A stretch of DNA of 64,000 nucleotides from contig JARGOZ010000015.1 of the NCBI GenBank assembly GCA_029213025.1, forward strand, positions 1 to 64,000, given 5' to 3'. Positions within the stretch are counted from its first letter, which is position 1. The number at the start of each line of letters is the position of its first letter. The position numbers and the translations under genes are program-made. Origin of the DNA: Verrucomicrobiales bacterium (lineage in GTDB: Bacteria; Verrucomicrobiota; Verrucomicrobiia; Verrucomicrobiales; DEV007). The notes under the pieces were generated by a model that searched no databases, was not told where the DNA came from, and saw nothing but the letters and a program-made list of their open reading frames with translations. Shown here one piece after another: positions 5,138 through 63,487 of this stretch.

Positions 5138-5172
5138 ACTGTACCCTGTTGAATGCCGGACTGTACCCTGTT
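5138..5172 (-). repeat. 22-bp-period repeat array, two copies
   Basis: Two perfect copies of ACTGTACCCTGTT lie at 5138-5150 and 5160-5172, start-to-start distance 22 bp. The spacer, read on the minus strand, is CCGGCATTC. The last copy overlaps by one base the TAA stop codon (5172-5174) of the pyridoxamine oxidase-like gene. Confidence 0.9.
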
Positions 5173-5621
5173 TAATCGATAGGGACATCAAAATATTCGA
5201 GGGCCCATTCGCGCATAAATCTCACCCGGGAGGGTTTGATTTGGTAGATGATCAATTCGGGATTGTTGATCGAACCGAGGTATTGGCGCAGCAATGGGTT
5301 GGAGTCCCATATTTCCTGAAGCAAATCCGGGTCGCTGAGGACTTCGGCCTGTCCTGTGATTCGAACCTGGTCGTGATCGGCAGCCATGTACGCCAATTCG
5401 ACTTTCGGGTTCGCTTCGATTTCGGCGGTTTTGTGGTAGGAGCGTAAATTGGCCACGTAGATGGTGAAATCCTCGTCCACCCGGACCGGCGAAACCGGCC
5501 GCACTCGGGGCCAGTCGTCCTGATCGACCGTTGCGAGCATCGGAAATTTGGCGGATTTGATGACAGCGTGAGAAAGTTCCGGCAGTTTTTCCGGGTCGAC
5601 GGGATCGGGTTCAGGTTTCAT
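5172..5621 (-). CDS. Pyridoxamine 5'-phosphate oxidase-like flavin-binding protein
   Basis: The protein is 149 aa from ATG 5621 (MKPEPDPVD); a TTG at 5639 is the less likely alternative. It is a compact split-barrel of the PNPOx-like superfamily: FPMLATVDQDDWPRVRPVSPV at the N terminus, IYVANLRSYHKTAEIEANPK in the middle, and VRITGQAEVL. These positions usually bind FMN, F420 or haem. Real PdxH is longer and has PLP-specific residues, so a general flavin/haem-binding stress or reductase role is more likely than vitamin B6 synthesis. Its stop codon abuts the 22-bp repeat array. Confidence 0.82.
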   Translation of the reverse strand: MKPEPDPVDPEKLPELSHAVIKSAKFPMLATVDQDDWPRVRPVSPVRVDEDFTIYVANLRSYHKTAEIEANPKVELAYMAADHDQVRITGQAEVLSDPDLLQEIWDSNPLLRQYLGSINNPELIIYQIKPSRVRFMREWALEYFDVPID

Positions 5622-18985: not shown

Positions 18986-19042
18986 ATCGTACCCTGTTGA
19001 CTCGCTCATTGTACCCTGTACAATGATGCACCGTACCCTGTT
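18986..19042 (-). repeat. 22-bp-period repeat array, three copies
   Basis: Three cores lie at 18986-18998 (ATCGTACCCTGTT), 19008-19020 (ATTGTACCCTGTA) and 19030-19042 (ACCGTACCCTGTT), each start 22 bp after the previous. The invariant part is GTACCCTGT. The array fills the gap between the stop codon of the M28-like gene (18982-18984) and the start of the papain-like gene (19051). Confidence 0.88.
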
Positions 19043-19050
19043 TAATTGAT

Positions 19051-27022: not shown

Positions 27023-27757
27023 TTGAACCAGGAATCACAATCCCATCCTGCCCTGGCGGAGCTGAGGCAGGTCTTGAAAGAGAAGTTTGCCACCGCCCAC
27101 CGGGACTATACGCCCCGGGAAACAATACGTTGCGGGGTGGACTGGATCGATCAGGCCGGACTGGAGAAGGGCAGCCTGTGCGAGATCTCCGCCCGGGAAA
27201 GTTCCCCGGCGGGCGGGGCGGTAATTCTCGGCCGGATCCTCCAACACATCATCCGGGAGCGTCAGCGACTGGTGTTGATCGACGGGGCTGATGCATTTGA
27301 TCCCGCGATTCTGCCTGCTTTCGGCGCGGTAATTCCGGCCGAAAGCCAGGATGCTGTGCCGCAGGGATGTGATCTCGATGGTTCGTTGATTTGGGCCCGC
27401 TGCCGGGGTGTCGCCGAGGCGGTAAAAGTGGCCGATATGATGCTTCGCGACGGAAATCTGCCGCGCACTGTGATTGATCTGCAGAACAACGATCTCAAAG
27501 AAATTCGCTCTATCCCCGCTTCCAGTTGGCTGCGGCTGCGGTCTTTGACAGAGGATTCCGGCGTTAATTGTCTGATTCTGACTCCCGCCCCCGCCATCAA
27601 TTGTGCCGCGATGCGATTTGAAATCACCGGCCGCTACACTCTCGATGATTTGGAGTGTCCGGAATGGATTTGGGCCGAAAAAAATACCGGGAAGACCGGG
27701 CATTGTCAGCGCCGGCTGAAGTCCGGCGGAAAAAGTGGACTTCTTATGGCCGGATAA
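27023..27757 (+). CDS. imuA: ImuA-like RecA-fold mutasome protein
   Basis: The 244-aa protein has the RecA-related ImuA layout: a helical N terminus, then VDWIDQAGLEKGSLCEISARE at the strand-loop position where RecA has Walker A (no GKT here), RLVLIDGADAFDP as a Walker-B-like strand, and LPRTVIDLQNN. Together with ImuB and usually DnaE2 it forms the SOS-induced translesion mutasome; ImuA binds RecA. TTG 27023 is the only start after an in-frame stop at 27002. imuB begins 6 bp downstream, indicating translational coupling. No dnaE2 follows in this window. Confidence 0.82.
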   Translation: MNQESQSHPALAELRQVLKEKFATAHRDYTPRETIRCGVDWIDQAGLEKGSLCEISARESSPAGGAVILGRILQHIIRERQRLVLIDGADAFDPAILPAFGAVIPAESQDAVPQGCDLDGSLIWARCRGVAEAVKVADMMLRDGNLPRTVIDLQNNDLKEIRSIPASSWLRLRSLTEDSGVNCLILTPAPAINCAAMRFEITGRYTLDDLECPEWIWAEKNTGKTGHCQRRLKSGGKSGLLMAG

Positions 27758-27763
27758 CAAAAG

Positions 27764-29401
27764 ATGTTTGCTGCGATCCATATCCCGCGCCCGGCGCTGC
27801 AGGCTTTGTTCATCGAAAAGCCGGGGATGCGTTATCAACCTGTCGTTGTGCTGGATGAAGCGGAGAAAACCACCACATCAAAGCGGGACCGGGGCAAACT
27901 CCGGGTTCTCGAAATATCGGCTGAAGCGGAGGAGTTCGGGATTCATCGCGGCATGACCGCCGTCCAGGCGCAGGCCCGCTGTGATTATCTGGAGCTGCTC
28001 AACCGGTCTCCCCGGGCTGAAACCGATCTTACCGAAACGCTGCTCGATTGTGCGGGCGATTTTACTCCGGATTTCGAAGATACAGAGTGCGGGACCTGTA
28101 TTCTCGATTTGGGAGGAGTGGCGGCGATAGATCGCGACGCTCTGCGGATTAGTCGACAGATACACGAGCGCATCAGCGATCATCAGTTTTTTCCCCGGAT
28201 CGGAATGGCCACCAATCCCGATCTCGCCGCCCTGGCCGCCCGCGCCTGCCGGTACGTTGCCGGGGCGGAGGAAATCCTTGTCATCCGGGATCAGGACCGG
28301 GAGCAAATCCTGTCGCCGCTGCCGGTTGGGTTGCTCGACCTGACTCCGGAGATGTCCGATTTATTTGATCTCTGGGGATTGCGTAACCTCGGGGAGCTGG
28401 CGCGTCTCAGTCGGGCCGACCTCGTTGAGCGACTCGGGGCGGAATCCGCTGTTTTGTGGGATCAGGCCTGTGGGACAAGTCGTCGTCTGCTCCGTCTGGT
28501 TCGTCCTGTAGCCGAATATTCCGGAACCATCGAACTGGAATATGAGATCACCACAACCGAACCGCTCGTTTTTTTGCTGCGACGACTTCTCGATACTATC
28601 GCGGCCCGGCTTCGCAGTGCCTGGTTGGTCGCCGCACGTCTTTCGCTGCGGCTCGATCTGGCGGGCGGGAACCGGTATCAGCGCGTCTTCCGGATTCCCG
28701 AGCCCTGTGCCGATGTCGACATGCTCACCGGGATGCTCGCGGTTCATCTGGAGGATTTTGAAGCCCGCTCACCGGTTACCGGGATAACTCTCCAGGCGAT
28801 TCCGACCCGGGCGGGGAAACACCAGTTTGATCTCTTTGCCGCCGGAGTCAAAGATCCCAACCGGCTTTCCGAAACCCTGGCCCGGGTCGAAGCCCTGCTC
28901 GGCAGCGAACGCTTCGGTGTGCCCCGGCTGCGCCCGACTCACCACCCCGACAGCTTCGAGATGCGTCCCTTTCACCCCGGCAAAGAACCGGTATGCCCGG
29001 AAGACGAAACGCTTTTGATCATGAAACAACTGCCCATGCGGCGCTACCGCCCGCGACGTCATGTTCTGGTTCAGTGTGAAGGGGATTCAACAGGGTACAG
29101 TCCTGCATTCAACAGGGTACAGTCCCGGACTCAACAGGGTACAGTTGGTGATTCAACAGGGTACAGTGCGTTGAAAAAGACTCCGCCGGCTCCGGCTCAG
29201 CAGACGGCTCCGCTGGTGATTCTTTCCGGGGATTTTAAAGGTCGAATTGTCGACACCCGCGGTCCGTATTCCGCATCGGGCAGCTGGTGGGAAAAGCGGA
29301 TCTACTGGCGCCGCGAAGAATGGGATGTCGCCCATGAAAACGGTCGAATCTATCGACTGGTCAAAGAGAAAGGAGAGTGGTTTGTGGAAGCCGTAGGGTA
29401 A
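27764..29401 (+). CDS. imuB: ImuB, Y-family polymerase-like mutasome protein with in-frame repeat insertion
   Basis: The 545-aa protein keeps the Y-family layout (palm/fingers about 1-200, little-finger-like region to about 420). It lacks the catalytic acidic residues of active DinB at the N terminus (MFAAIHIPRPALQ replaces the D-x-D motif), as ImuB proteins do. It would act as a beta-clamp-binding hub for DnaE2. The C-terminal ImuB-specific module is intact (GDFKGRIVDTRGPYSASGSW, WDVAHENGRIYRL). Between these modules, residues about 442-468 are encoded by four copies of the 22-bp-period repeat. Since 3 x 22 bp is 66 bp, the frame is preserved and GDSTGYS appears at both ends. Confidence 0.88.
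   Translation: MFAAIHIPRPALQALFIEKPGMRYQPVVVLDEAEKTTTSKRDRGKLRVLEISAEAEEFGIHRGMTAVQAQARCDYLELLNRSPRAETDLTETLLDCAGDFTPDFEDTECGTCILDLGGVAAIDRDALRISRQIHERISDHQFFPRIGMATNPDLAALAARACRYVAGAEEILVIRDQDREQILSPLPVGLLDLTPEMSDLFDLWGLRNLGELARLSRADLVERLGAESAVLWDQACGTSRRLLRLVRPVAEYSGTIELEYEITTTEPLVFLLRRLLDTIAARLRSAWLVAARLSLRLDLAGGNRYQRVFRIPEPCADVDMLTGMLAVHLEDFEARSPVTGITLQAIPTRAGKHQFDLFAAGVKDPNRLSETLARVEALLGSERFGVPRLRPTHHPDSFEMRPFHPGKEPVCPEDETLLIMKQLPMRRYRPRRHVLVQCEGDSTGYSPAFNRVQSRTQQGTVGDSTGYSALKKTPPAPAQQTAPLVILSGDFKGRIVDTRGPYSASGSWWEKRIYWRREEWDVAHENGRIYRLVKEKGEWFVEAVG
29089..29167 (+). repeat. 22-bp-period repeat array, four copies inside imuB
   Basis: Four perfect copies of AACAGGGTACAGT start at 29089, 29111, 29133 and 29155, each exactly 22 bp apart. 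The 9-bp spacers are CCTGCATTC, CCCGGACTC and TGGTGATTC, all ending in TC. The array is translated as part of ImuB in the linker before the C-terminal module. Confidence 0.95.
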
Positions 29402-29590
29402 TTAGTCATTCGGAGGCCATTTTTCGCCTGTTTTTCTCCGGGATTGATTTTTTCGACGATACACACAGAAAAGACGGAAAATGAGCCTCTATGAACTGCA
29501 ATTGTGACCAGCAATGGTCCACCGATATCAGGGCAACTGAGTGAGGATTTTTTGTTGCCTTGATAATTCACCTGTCTAAGGTAATTCACG

Positions 29591-32110
29591 ATGCCAAACA
29601 CAGAAGACAAACCAACCAAGCTGACTCCCATGATGAAGCAGTATATGGACATGCGCCGGAGCCTGCCGGACGATGTCCTGCTGCTGTACCGTCTGGGAGA
29701 CTTCTATGAAATGTTTTTTGATGACGCGGTGCGGGCTTCGCCGATCCTTAATGCGGCGCTGACTAAAAGGAACGGAATCCCCATGTGCGGGGTGCCGCAT
29801 CACGCGGCGGAGGGCTACATCGCAAAGTTGATCCGGGCCGGGAAGCGGGTGGCGATTGCGGAGCAGACGACGACGCCGCAACCGGGAAAAATCGTGGAGC
29901 GTGAGATTTCCCAGATCATCAGCGCGGGCACCATCGATGATATGAATCTGCTCGATGCGGAACGGTCCAATTATCTCGCCGCTGTCTATAAAGCGAAGCG
30001 GCGCTTTGGTCTGGCCTATCTCGAACACACCACGGGGGAGTTCAAATTGACGGAGTTTGGCGAAATTGACGGGTTGATCGACGAACTGTCACGGCTCCGG
30101 CCCAGCGAGCTGCTTTTCTCCGATGAACAGGGCGAATGGTTCGATACTCTGGCAAACGCTCAGGATTACGATGGCTACACCTTTTTGTTCGACCAGGCGC
30201 AATATGCTCTGAAAGAGCATTTTAAGGTGAAGACTCTCGATGGTTTCGGCTGCGGTAACTGTGTCGCAGCGGTCTGTGCGGCGGGGGCGATTCTTCACTA
30301 CGTCGAGACCCAGCTGCGTCGCAAAGTGGATCACGTCCGGACGCTGGGTACTTATCACACAGACAGTTTTGTGTTAATCGACGCCGCCAGCCAGGCGAAT
30401 CTTGATCTTGTTAACAGTCGCTCGGGCGGCGTGAAACACAGTTTGCTCGGGGCGATCGACCGGACGGCGACTCCCATGGGGGCGCGGAAACTACGCGACT
30501 GGGTGCTGCATCCGATCCGCGATCTGGGAGAACTTCTGGCCCGGCAGGATGTCGTCGAGGCGGCTTCGAATCAGCACTTTGTGCTCACGCAGATGCAGGA
30601 ATCACTGAAGGAGATCCGGGATGTGGAACGAACCTTGAGCCGACTCAGTCAGGGCTCGGGTAATGGTCGCGATCTCAAGGCGCTGGAAGTTTCGCTGATG
30701 AAAGTGCCGGATGTGAAAGCTCATCTCGATGCGATTCAAGGCGGGGAACTTTGCGAAAGATTGCAACGCCAGCTGGGAGATTTTTCCGATCTGGTGGCTT
30801 TGCTGAACAAGGCTCTCGTTGATGAACCGCCTGCCACAATCAAAGACGGTGGAATTTTTGCGGACGGTTACAGCACGACGATTGATGAATTGCGCAAAGG
30901 GGCCACAGAAGGAAAACAGTGGATTGCGGAACTCCAGATCAAGGAACAGGACCGGAGCGGAATCCCGTCGCTCAAAGTGAAATACAACAATGTGTTTGGC
31001 TATTTCATCGAGATCACAAAGTCCAATCTCGACAAGGTACCGACCGAATACACCCGGAAGCAGACCATGGCGAATGCGGAGCGCTACATCACGCCGGAGC
31101 TGAAGGAGATGGAGAACAAAATCCTCGGCGCTGACGAACGACTTCGCGCTCTGGAATATGAAGAATTCCTCAACCTGCGGGAAACGGTGTTGGAACATCT
31201 CGAAGCGATTCAGAAAACGGCGGCGGCTTTGGCTGAGATTGACGTGCTGATTTCCTTCGCGGAAACGAGCCGGATGTTCGGTTATACCCGTCCGGTTTTG
31301 AATGACACTCGCAATCTGCACATCGTTCAAGGGCGTCACCCGGTTCTGGATCAGAATATCGGCGAGGAAAAATTTGTTCCCAACGATACGGTTCTCGATG
31401 GCGATGAACAGCGCCAGATCCTGATCACCGGGCCGAATATGTCGGGTAAATCCACTTACATTCGTCAGGTCGCGCTGATTACTTTGATGGCTCAGATCGG
31501 GAGTTTTGTTCCGGCGGAGTCGGCGGAAATCGGCCTGGTCGACCGAATCTTTACCCGGGTGGGTGCGAGCGATGATCTCGCACGGGGCCACTCCACATTT
31601 ATGGTCGAAATGACTGAGACGGCTGTAATCGTCAACAGCGCCACGGACCGGAGTCTCGTGGTGCTCGATGAAATAGGCAGGGGCACCGCGACGTACGACG
31701 GTCTTTCCATTGCCTGGAGCGTATCCGAGCATCTTCATGACAGCGTGAAAGCCCGGACTCTGTTTGCAACGCATTACCATGAGTTGACCGAACTGGCGGA
31801 GTCCCGTCGTGGCGTAAAAAACTACAGTGTCGCGGTTCGGGAATGGAATGATCAGATCATTTTTCTTCACCAAATTGTTCCGGGCGCAGCCAATCGAAGC
31901 TATGGAATCCAGGTAGCGCGGCTCGCCGGATTGCCGGATTCCATCGTATCCCGGGCCAAGGAAATTCTATCGGGCCTCGAAGGGGGAGCGGCGATTCCGG
32001 TTACTCAGGAGGTGGAAAAGCCGAAACGCAAGAAAGCGGTAAAGCGGAAGCCGGAAGTGGTGAAAGAGCGAATCGAGGAGGACGATCCGCAGTTGCTGCT
32101 CTTCAGCTGA
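29591..32110 (+). CDS. mutS: DNA mismatch repair protein MutS
   Basis: The 839-aa protein has the MutS1 order: mismatch-binding domain with GDFYEMFFDDA (the Phe-x-Glu that wedges into mismatches, about residues 36-46), connector, core/lever, clamp, and ATPase. The ATPase has Walker A TGPNMSGKST (about 613-622), Walker B SLVVLDEIGRGT and FATHYHEL. A Lys/Arg-rich linker leads to a short C-terminal tail. It recognises mismatched DNA and recruits MutL. It is 189 bp downstream of imuB with no terminator seen, and its stop is 2 bp from that of recQ. Confidence 0.96.
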   Translation: MPNTEDKPTKLTPMMKQYMDMRRSLPDDVLLLYRLGDFYEMFFDDAVRASPILNAALTKRNGIPMCGVPHHAAEGYIAKLIRAGKRVAIAEQTTTPQPGKIVEREISQIISAGTIDDMNLLDAERSNYLAAVYKAKRRFGLAYLEHTTGEFKLTEFGEIDGLIDELSRLRPSELLFSDEQGEWFDTLANAQDYDGYTFLFDQAQYALKEHFKVKTLDGFGCGNCVAAVCAAGAILHYVETQLRRKVDHVRTLGTYHTDSFVLIDAASQANLDLVNSRSGGVKHSLLGAIDRTATPMGARKLRDWVLHPIRDLGELLARQDVVEAASNQHFVLTQMQESLKEIRDVERTLSRLSQGSGNGRDLKALEVSLMKVPDVKAHLDAIQGGELCERLQRQLGDFSDLVALLNKALVDEPPATIKDGGIFADGYSTTIDELRKGATEGKQWIAELQIKEQDRSGIPSLKVKYNNVFGYFIEITKSNLDKVPTEYTRKQTMANAERYITPELKEMENKILGADERLRALEYEEFLNLRETVLEHLEAIQKTAAALAEIDVLISFAETSRMFGYTRPVLNDTRNLHIVQGRHPVLDQNIGEEKFVPNDTVLDGDEQRQILITGPNMSGKSTYIRQVALITLMAQIGSFVPAESAEIGLVDRIFTRVGASDDLARGHSTFMVEMTETAVIVNSATDRSLVVLDEIGRGTATYDGLSIAWSVSEHLHDSVKARTLFATHYHELTELAESRRGVKNYSVAVREWNDQIIFLHQIVPGAANRSYGIQVARLAGLPDSIVSRAKEILSGLEGGAAIPVTQEVEKPKRKKAVKRKPEVVKERIEEDDPQLLLFS

Positions 32111-32112
32111 GC

Positions 32113-34260
32113 TTATTGGTAGCGGCGAATTTCTTCAAGGATTGGCTCCAGATACCGTTCGGCTTTGACTTCGCCAACCCCGCTGATTCGCATCGCTTCC
32201 TCGCGGGTTTTTGGCCGAAGTCGGGTAAAGGCTTCGAGAACCTGATTGCTGAAAATGACAAAAGCGGGCTTTCCACCGTCTTCTTCTGCAATTTCGGCGC
32301 GCTTTTCCTTCAGTTTTTCGTAGAGCTTTTCATCAAAGGCGAGTTCATCGAGTGCGATCGCGGGAATTTTGTCGGCTCTCTTTGATTTCGGCTTTTCAAA
32401 ATGAGCCTGCTCCGGCCATTCGATTTTGAATTGGTTGTTGCCGTGCATCACCTCCGCTCCGCGCCGGGTGAGAGTGAGAAGGGGATAGGGCGTTTTCTGG
32501 ATCGCGACAAAGCCCGATTTCTGCAACTCGCCGAGAAGGGCAAAAAGATAGGCGGTGCCCTGCTTTTTGAGCAGGCCGTAGGTAGAAAGATTGTCCAGTT
32601 TAGCGGACAGGACTTCCTGTGATCTTCCTCCCACAAGCATTTGCACGATGCGTCCTTTGCCGAAGCGGCCTTCCCATGACCCGTCCGGCCGGTGGGTGGA
32701 ACAGCGCGCCACACCGCTGAGGGCCTTTCTAACGATGAGAAACTCTTCATCGGTCGGAGCCCGCCGCACGGAGTTGTGGCCGGAAGCGCAGTTGTCGCAA
32801 GTCCCGCAGTTGGCGGCATCGTCTTCGCCGAAATAGTTCAGGATCCAGGCCTGGCGGCAGGTACTGTCATCGTAACAGAACTGCACCATGGCATCGAGAC
32901 GGGCCCGGTCGCGGCGCTCTTTTTCGGTGAGTGCGGCGTGATCGATGATCATTTCATCAGGATTTAACCCCGGTCGGCTGAGCCTTGTGCCCCGCATTCG
33001 TTTTCCCGGAATATCAAAGCGCTCGATGTATCCGGCTTTGGCGAGATGGGAAAGAGCACTGCCGACCTGCATGGTATTATTCAGCTGAATCTGATCCGCC
33101 AGATCCTTGATCGTCATGTGGATTTCATTGTTCACTGCGAGCTGTTGCAGTGCCCGGTAAAGCATCACGATGGTTTCATAACCGGGATTGTTGCCTTCGA
33201 TGAAAAATTCCTGGGTGCGGGTATCAGCGTAGTTGAAATAGAGCTCGCACTCCGAGCTCTCGCCGTCCCGTCCGGCCCGTCCCGCCTCCTGGTAGTAGGC
33301 TTCGATACTGCCGGGCACATCGAAATGCGCGACAAAGCGGACATCCGACCGGTCGATCCCCATTCCAAAAGCGTTGGTTGCCACAGCCACATCCCGCGTT
33401 TTCTCGATAAACACATTCTGCGCCCACGCCCGATCCTGGTCGTCCATCCCGCCGTGGTAGGCGATTACTTTTTTTCCGATCGATTCGAGATGAGCACAGA
33501 CTTCCTCGACTTTTTTCCGGGTCGAACAGTAGACGATGCCGGTTCGCTGCCGACTGATAAGTGCTTCGAGCCGTTCATATTTTTCCCGGTTGCCCCCGCA
33601 CTGGACGACTTTCAGGCTGAGATTGGGGCGTTCAAATCCACTGATCGAAACGTAGGGATCGCGGAGTTTGAGATGTTTAAGAATATCGGCCCGGACATCG
33701 GGCGTGGCTGTCGCGGTAAAGGCGGCGGTTTGCGGATTATTCAGTTTTTCCAGCGCGTCTCCGAGCCGCACATAATCAGGGCGGAAATCGTGCCCCCACT
33801 GACTCAGACAGTGGGCTTCATCGACCGCAAAAAGGGCGATCTGCACCTGACTGAGGGCATTGATAAAGCCCTGGCTGCGAAATCTTTCCGGGGCGACGTA
33901 AACCAGCTTGAATTGTCCGGCGGCCAGTCCCTTCAGCCGCTCGCCCTGTTCGCCCGGGGAAAGAGTGCTGTTTATCATTGTCGCCGAGATTCCCTTTTTC
34001 TGTAATCCATCGACCTGATCTTTCATGAGAGCAATCAACGGGCTGATGACCAGCGTCACTCCGTCCATAACCAGCGCGGGAAGCTGGTAGCAAAGCGACT
34101 TACCACCTCCCGTAGGCATCACTGCCAGAGTGTCTTTGCCGGAAAGGAGAGCAGATACCACTGGCTCCTGGCCGGACAGAAAATCCCGGAAACCGAAATG
34201 GTGCTCCAGAGCCTCGCGGGGATCACGGATGACTTTGGAAGAATTGGCGGCGGAAGACAT
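32113..34260 (-). CDS. recQ: ATP-dependent DNA helicase RecQ
   Basis: The 715-aa protein has the full RecQ set: helicase core with Walker A TGGGKSLCYQLPA and DEAHCLSQWGHDFRPDY, GMGIDRSDVRFVAHFD, an arginine-finger region VGR-type QEAGRAGRDG, a zinc-binding RQC subdomain (C...CGTCDNC at about residues 380-400 of the core), winged helix, and a C-terminal HRDC domain (VLEAFTRLRPKTREEA, ISGVGEVKAERYLEPIL). It unwinds recombination intermediates and works with SSB and TopoIII. It converges on mutS, and its start is about 80 bp from the divergent HisA-like gene. Confidence 0.95.
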   Translation of the reverse strand: MSSAANSSKVIRDPREALEHHFGFRDFLSGQEPVVSALLSGKDTLAVMPTGGGKSLCYQLPALVMDGVTLVISPLIALMKDQVDGLQKKGISATMINSTLSPGEQGERLKGLAAGQFKLVYVAPERFRSQGFINALSQVQIALFAVDEAHCLSQWGHDFRPDYVRLGDALEKLNNPQTAAFTATATPDVRADILKHLKLRDPYVSISGFERPNLSLKVVQCGGNREKYERLEALISRQRTGIVYCSTRKKVEEVCAHLESIGKKVIAYHGGMDDQDRAWAQNVFIEKTRDVAVATNAFGMGIDRSDVRFVAHFDVPGSIEAYYQEAGRAGRDGESSECELYFNYADTRTQEFFIEGNNPGYETIVMLYRALQQLAVNNEIHMTIKDLADQIQLNNTMQVGSALSHLAKAGYIERFDIPGKRMRGTRLSRPGLNPDEMIIDHAALTEKERRDRARLDAMVQFCYDDSTCRQAWILNYFGEDDAANCGTCDNCASGHNSVRRAPTDEEFLIVRKALSGVARCSTHRPDGSWEGRFGKGRIVQMLVGGRSQEVLSAKLDNLSTYGLLKKQGTAYLFALLGELQKSGFVAIQKTPYPLLTLTRRGAEVMHGNNQFKIEWPEQAHFEKPKSKRADKIPAIALDELAFDEKLYEKLKEKRAEIAEEDGGKPAFVIFSNQVLEAFTRLRPKTREEAMRISGVGEVKAERYLEPILEEIRRYQ

Positions 34261-41176: not shown

Positions 41177-41184
41177 TAGGACTT

Positions 41185-41219
41185 AACAGGGTACAGTCCG
41201 GGACTCAACAGGGTACAGT
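41185..41219 (+). repeat. 22-bp-period repeat array, two copies
   Basis: AACAGGGTACAGT occurs at 41185-41197 and 41207-41219, 22 bp apart, with spacer CCGGGACTC. It sits just upstream of the start codon of the squalene/phytoene synthase gene (41176) and downstream of aroG, both on the minus strand. This is the only array in the window that abuts a start rather than a stop codon. Confidence 0.92.
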
Positions 41220-59976: not shown

Positions 59977-60037
59977 ATTGTACCCTGTTGGATCGCAGAC
60001 CTGACAGGGTACAGTGCCGGACCTAACAGGGTACAGT
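59977..60037. repeat. 22-bp-period repeat with inverted copy between metH and arsJ
   Basis: One core in forward orientation (ATTGTACCCTGTT, 59977-59989) is followed by two cores in reverse (GACAGGGTACAGT at 60003-60015, AACAGGGTACAGT at 60025-60037, 22 bp apart, spacer GCCGGACCT). The first and second can fold into a 13-bp stem with a 13-nt loop. The array lies between convergent stop codons and supplies the stop codon of the arsJ-like gene. Confidence 0.9.
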
Positions 60038-63448: not shown

Positions 63449-63452
63449 ACTG

Positions 63453-63487
63453 AACAGGGTACAGTCCCGGACCTAACAGGGTACAAT
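63453..63487 (+). repeat. 22-bp-period repeat array, two copies
   Basis: AACAGGGTACAGT at 63453-63465 and AACAGGGTACAAT at 63475-63487 are 22 bp apart, with spacer CCCGGACCT. The array follows the stop codon of the YmdB-type gene by 4 bp and precedes the stop of the convergent amidase (63514). Confidence 0.9.

Follow-up and report, generated by a model that had tools for sequence, protein, structure and literature searches.

The window analysed here, the whole stretch of 64,000 nucleotides, contains a tandem array of four 22-bp units within the coding frame of imuB, which raises the question of whether this array is an on/off switch of the gene, as proposed in the preliminary description, or a copy of a repeat that resides there for other reasons.

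The array in the linker of ImuB

The imuB ORF (27764..29401, + strand, 545 aa) contains the Pfam IMS domain (PF00817, E 5e-17), and its full-length orthologue in a related Verrucomicrobia MAG (G030) is 59% identical. The assignment to ImuB is based on the IMS fold match, on the imuA-like neighbour found upstream both in the genome of the window (G000; 7.88 Mb, 338 contigs) and in G030, and on the presence of a C-terminal extension. The imuA-like ORF directly 5' of imuB (27023..27757, + strand) is named from its position and from the matching ORF beside G030 imuB; Pfam and NCBIfam searches with it gave no match. QFDLF (28823..28837, + strand), recognized by eye 5' of the array and replaced by QYELF at the same position of the G030 protein, is a possible beta-clamp-binding motif of ImuB. 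The C-terminal module on the 3' side of the array (29168..29398, + strand) has no meaningful match in Pfam and has a conserved counterpart in G030, encoded in the same frame; the ORF is considered intact because its translation 3' of the array can be aligned with that of the G030 orthologue up to the protein end. Positions 27023-34260 of the window comprise a cluster of the imuA-like gene, imuB, mutS, and a gene for a recQ-like helicase, which was identified by ORF reading only.

The array itself (29084..29168, + strand) encodes residues ~441-469. Perfect matches to TCAACAGGGTACAGT begin at 29087, 29109, 29131, and 29153 on the + strand, all four 15-nt cores being perfect, and TRF detects a period of 22 at 29083/29084-29167. 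The preliminary description of four perfect cores at a 22-bp period, lying in frame in the ImuB linker, is confirmed, as is the recurrence of the peptide GDSTGYS 22 residues on. The units are translated in three different frames, as STGYS, FNRVQS, and TQQGTV. In ImuB proteins of the genus that have no array, this position is occupied by a short turn, in agreement with the earlier view of an in-frame linker insertion. The frame arithmetic also holds: in computed variants with one or two units removed or added, the protein ends after 447-484 aa, ahead of the C-terminal module, whereas a change by three units retains the C-terminus. A non-triplet tandem repeat that lies within a coding frame and truncates the product upon a one-unit change is a feature shared with contingency loci and, together with cores perfect over 15 bp, argues for phase variation of imuB through gain and loss of 22-bp units.

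Distribution and structure of the repeat family

The imuB unit recurs in five further arrays of the window that were absent from the preliminary description. These are a two-unit array at 5138..5174 (- strand), a three-unit array between two genes at 18986..19044 (- strand), a two-unit array between two genes at 41183..41219 (+ strand), whose syntenic junction in G030 holds three 21-bp units, a three-unit array of mixed orientation at 59977..60037, located 9 bp past the stop codon of a 1254-aa ORF, and a two-unit array just past a stop codon at 63451..63487 (+ strand). The gene upstream of this last array has a G030 orthologue that likewise precedes an array, which is oppositely oriented. The whole window contains 17 sites with at most three mismatches, compared with 0.6 expected from dinucleotide shuffles, and has no match in Rfam. 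On the scale of the G000 genome, CAACAGGGTACAGT with at most one mismatch is found in 931 places, versus 2 for the reversed-pattern control. No two-unit train was found in IMG/VR viral contigs.

We analyzed 92 arrays comprising 239 units in 61 stretches of G000 (1.22 Mb in total), which were chosen partly via search hits, so that array densities are inexact. Arrays of two and of three units are equally common (39 each), followed by four units (10 arrays) and single units (4 arrays). According to gene calls that consider long ORFs only, 40 arrays are intergenic, 25 extend across an ORF edge, 14 (about 15%) are internal to ORFs, and the remaining 13 are located at N- or C-terminal ORF ends. Start codons are probably misplaced at many of these 13, and the 11 N-terminal in-gene arrays were set aside for this reason. 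The median distance of the arrays from a stop codon is 20 bp.

The unit of the family is a 19-bp imperfect palindrome repeated at a 22-bp pitch, with gaps of 3 bp. Its G000 consensus, GAYTCAAC AGG GTACARTC, has the arms G-A-Y-T and A-R-T-C around an asymmetric core. Unit positions 3 to 11 are near-invariant, with the reservation that the core doubled as the search key (at most three mismatches allowed), and A at position -2, beyond the searched 15-mer, is conserved in 224 of the 239 units. The 3-nt gaps are represented by 37 different sequences among 143. Of 147 pairs of adjacent palindromes, 143 have their centres exactly 22 bp apart, comprising 128 pairs of like and 15 of opposite orientation, and the remaining four have a distance of 44 bp, corresponding to one missing unit. 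This exact phasing, independent of orientation and with no odd spacing, and the invariant core next to variable gaps are consistent with trains of selected sites at which a DNA-binding dimer, of a nucleoid, replication, or regulatory protein, would occupy one helix face every 22 bp, the sites changing together with the specificity of the protein in each species. We regard this possibility, to which we return below, as rather unlikely.

The palindromes might instead function at the RNA level, forming hairpins that terminate or stabilize transcripts, the imuB copy being a by-product. The proximity to stop codons agrees with this, and so does the unit of another genome, G009, which is a near-perfect palindrome, GACCTAAC AGG GTTAGGTC, and thus a near-perfect hairpin; one G009 array (L202:884-976) folds strongly as RNA, with a z-score of -4.7. 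On the other hand, arrays of G000 and G030 have no folding advantage over shuffled sequences (z -0.6 to +0.4), the central arm positions are mismatched in nearly all units, and the variable Y-R arm pair is a C-A mismatch in 9 of 91 units, with no clear compensation; both orientations relative to genes also occur. Given the folding results, the RNA-hairpin reading was rejected for G000 and G030, and as a general explanation of the arrays it is improbable.

The G000 unit is stop-free in all sense frames and has a stop in every antisense frame. A train can therefore be translated in the sense direction as a soft linker, and the same property agrees with the finding that multi-unit internal arrays are in sense orientation. 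In the G009 consensus unit stops are present in every frame of both strands, hence units of this type are hardly readable through in genes.

In the broad sense, REPs are perfect or imperfect palindromes of 20-40 bp that are present in high copy number and mostly intergenic. The present repeats are palindromic, occur in hundreds of copies, and in 65 of the 92 sampled arrays are intergenic or extend across an ORF edge. They have no conserved tag, in the unit or in the adjacent bases, that would correspond to the terminal tetranucleotide of the GTAG/CGTC superfamily. They also differ from REPINs, which consist of two inverted REPs with a conserved spacer, since 128 of the 147 pairs are in the same orientation at 22 bp and the gaps are variable. 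It is a new REP-like family, strictly phased and untagged.

Species dialects and arrays at orthologous sites

Genus-wide counts were obtained with the palindrome pattern RAYYNAACAGGGTNNRRTY, which has at least five matches in 20 of 33 other genus members and 0 or 1 in genomes of other genera; the numbers are 689 in G000, 254 in G009, and 117 in both G007 and G029. The family of palindrome trains is confined to the genus and has species dialects. In G030, with just 2 matches to this old pattern, the dialect is AATAGGGTACAAT/AGT, mostly in two units, and 28 of 29 pairs have a pitch of 21 bp. A search of genome contigs with ImuB revealed no close relative, and a second scan, for the tandem pattern, gave at least the G030 MAG.

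Internal arrays of G000 are found in ImuB, a double-length UvrA, DnaE2, DnaE, RsmB, an AcrB-like pump, an FtsX-like permease, several PSD1/PSCyt proteins, and, with one clear unit, a PBP1C-like protein. No enrichment of repair genes among them is claimed, since the dnaE2 and dnaE stretches were picked via search hits. The UvrA gene (L081:1597-7194) encodes a 1866-aa protein in which two UvrA moieties are fused, the array lying between the halves, and has orthologues in G030, G005, and G035.

Comparison with G030 revealed arrays in the same linkers as in G000 in ImuB (three units, 21 bp), UvrA (three units), and DnaE2 (two units). The MenD and RsmB linkers are also occupied, but by inverted arrays; two antisense frames of the 21-bp unit are readable, and the unit occurs in this orientation in these two proteins. 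No array is present in G030 DnaE at the linker filled in G000, and the FtsX-like protein of G030 has a plain empty linker at the site filled in G000. Sharing of five in-gene sites out of seven is far beyond chance if ~1.5% of genes have an internal array, a rate that is our own estimate. An orthologous neighbour was recognizable for 13 G000 arrays at gene junctions, and for 4 of these the end of the G030 gene also has an array, versus roughly 6% expected (binomial 0.006, with the background rate being our rough estimate); two of the four are in opposite orientation. In another genome, G005, UvrA, DnaE2, and RsmB are array-free, and MenD contains two degenerate units at a distance of 22 bp. Arrays have been gained or lost at the FtsX and DnaE linkers, and their inversion at RsmB, MenD, and two junctions shows that they are subject to change.

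Two other repeats were observed in these genomes. In the dnaE2 linker of G030 (L218), the 21-bp array is followed by a further hairpin-like repeat, AGAGGCGGCTTTCCAGCCGCCTC, and a second related copy. In 325 kb of G005 contigs (L177-L196), AGATGTGTATAAGAGAC occurs ~24 times, counting both strands; we take it to be part of the Nextera adapter sequence, and its copies in G005 are probably an assembly artefact.

The distribution of the family bears directly on the proposed on/off switch of imuB, which is not borne out. The imuB array belongs to a genome-wide family of dispersed copies, with one to four units in any of the sampled arrays, and the same insert is present in uvrA, dnaE2, dnaE, rsmB, and menD. 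Its units are few and imperfect, and the spacers between the cores vary, unlike those of typical contingency loci. The preliminary description had held that the same array in all orthologues would count against its proposal: the G030 gene does have an array in the same place, while the number of units, three, and the period are different. A frame-shifting repeat is not conserved there, and since the period is 21 bp, a copy-number change in G030 imuB cannot shift the frame. Phase variation of imuB is therefore very improbable, and the array has the appearance of a REP-like insertion that is tolerated, not of an on/off switch built into the gene.

Least probable of all is selection of the encoded peptide, DSTGYS...FNRVQS...TQQGTV, for a function as linker or interaction tag in proteins of the mutasome and of DNA repair. 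The same peptides are found in ImuB, DnaE2, DnaE, and UvrA, and G030 uses the same ImuB, DnaE2, and UvrA linkers. However, the G030 peptides differ, because the frame, period, and orientation differ; arrays also occur in RsmB, AcrB-like, FtsX-like, and MenD proteins, and the sampling of repair genes was not blind.

Maintenance of the arrays and known palindromic repeats

For the observed combination of phasing, dialects, in-frame location, and occupancy of the same linkers in several orthologous proteins, the explanation that we favour, with a probability of about 0.7, is that the imuB array is one copy of a dispersed, genus-confined, REP-like palindrome family that is refreshed preferentially at occupied sites. 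The family consists of trains of one to four imperfect 19-bp palindromes exactly 3 bp apart, with an ancestral unit of about GAYYNAAC-AGG-GTTNRRTC. Copies reside mostly between genes, often near stop codons, and would survive within genes only where they are readable and lie in a flexible linker, as in ImuB, which probably remains functional despite the array. A putative site-recognizing enzyme would spread and refresh the copies, preferring already occupied sites, and this preference would explain why the same linkers in related species have another dialect, another period, and sometimes another orientation. The shared sites of each species hold the local dialect, which requires that occupied sites are either subject to replacement or selected by a recognizer. 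Similarly, invariant cores and perfect phasing at old shared sites exceed the expectation for decaying insertions, and thus constraint or ongoing replacement is needed.

Constraint could be imposed by a genus-specific recognition system, in which a putative protein would read the several hundred trains phased at exactly 22 bp (about two helical turns); we propose this only tentatively. Drift of its specificity might have rewritten the sites in place throughout the genome, changing the core letter, pitch, and orientation even in coding sequence of repair and housekeeping genes, a scenario that we likewise consider doubtful. The uniform 21-bp pitch in G030, the near absence of old-dialect relics there, and the retention of arrays at orthologous sites are all in line with selected binding sites. 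However, presence or absence at FtsX and DnaE and the flips at RsmB, MenD, and two junctions amount to turnover, no binding protein is known, and the copies near stop codons and within genes have no obvious common context. We favour a REP-like element acting preferentially at old sites over the pure binding-site reading. The shared linkers (UvrA, DnaE2, ImuB, MenD, and RsmB), the empty sites (FtsX and DnaE), and the inverted copies form a set for separating insertion, inheritance, and in-place replacement with the help of closer genomes. The finding concerns less a local switch of a mutator than a question about the whole genome, namely how hundreds of repeats, some of them in protein genes, retain an exact pitch and change dialect jointly between species.

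The closest precedent is found in the sections considered here of a 2013 report on GTAG/CGTC REPs (PMC3733652), which describes such repeats inside genes, many of them for replication and repair, including uvrA and dnaE2. These sections note linkers as neutral sites, speculate on a mutator role, give the highest number of intragenic GTAG REPs for Opitutus terrae, also a member of the Verrucomicrobia, and mention one species pair with REPs at about the same recB site. Both families are short palindromes with hundreds of copies per genome, mostly intergenic and near stop codons, with an in-frame minority. In contrast to the GTAG/CGTC REPs as described there, the palindrome trains have no tag, follow a constant 21- or 22-bp pitch, and have no RAYT gene found in association; imuB, rsmB, and menD are not among the targets named in the same sections. 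The present arrays add an independent case to that part of the report that places such repeats within DNA-repair genes.

Rickettsia palindromic elements, as cited in the same sections of PMC3733652, are also palindromic DNA translated in apparently functional proteins. Their sequence is unrelated, though not compared letter by letter, and the present family differs in being tandem, mostly intergenic, and divided into dialects. BIME clusters of REPs similarly contain palindromic units, some in mixed orientation, located after genes, but BIME spacers are variable or long and conserved, whereas the gaps of the trains are constantly 3 bp long. Species-specific classes with an abundance roughly following host phylogeny are common to the present family and to the RAYT/TnpA-REP systems (PMC3686654, PMC8266576), from which it differs in that a cognate RAYT flanked by it was not found.

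Indeed, among 12 matches to Y1 transposase genes in G000, none is flanked on both sides by palindrome trains within 350 bp, and the Y1 gene of L040 is accompanied by a single two-unit array, at one of its sides. In G009, despite the abundance of the palindrome, no Y1 match was found in a genome that is 69% complete. A RAYT as the mobilizer of the family is not supported by the flanks of Y1 genes. The sole Y1 gene with repeats on both sides, that of L040, is flanked by a different palindrome family, CGACAGGATTGTCG. This second family has 116 matches in G000 with at most one mismatch, for example in the L040 flanks, L082:361-577, and L089:16123-16397, and forms BIME-like clusters with long conserved spacers, also beside palindrome-train arrays.
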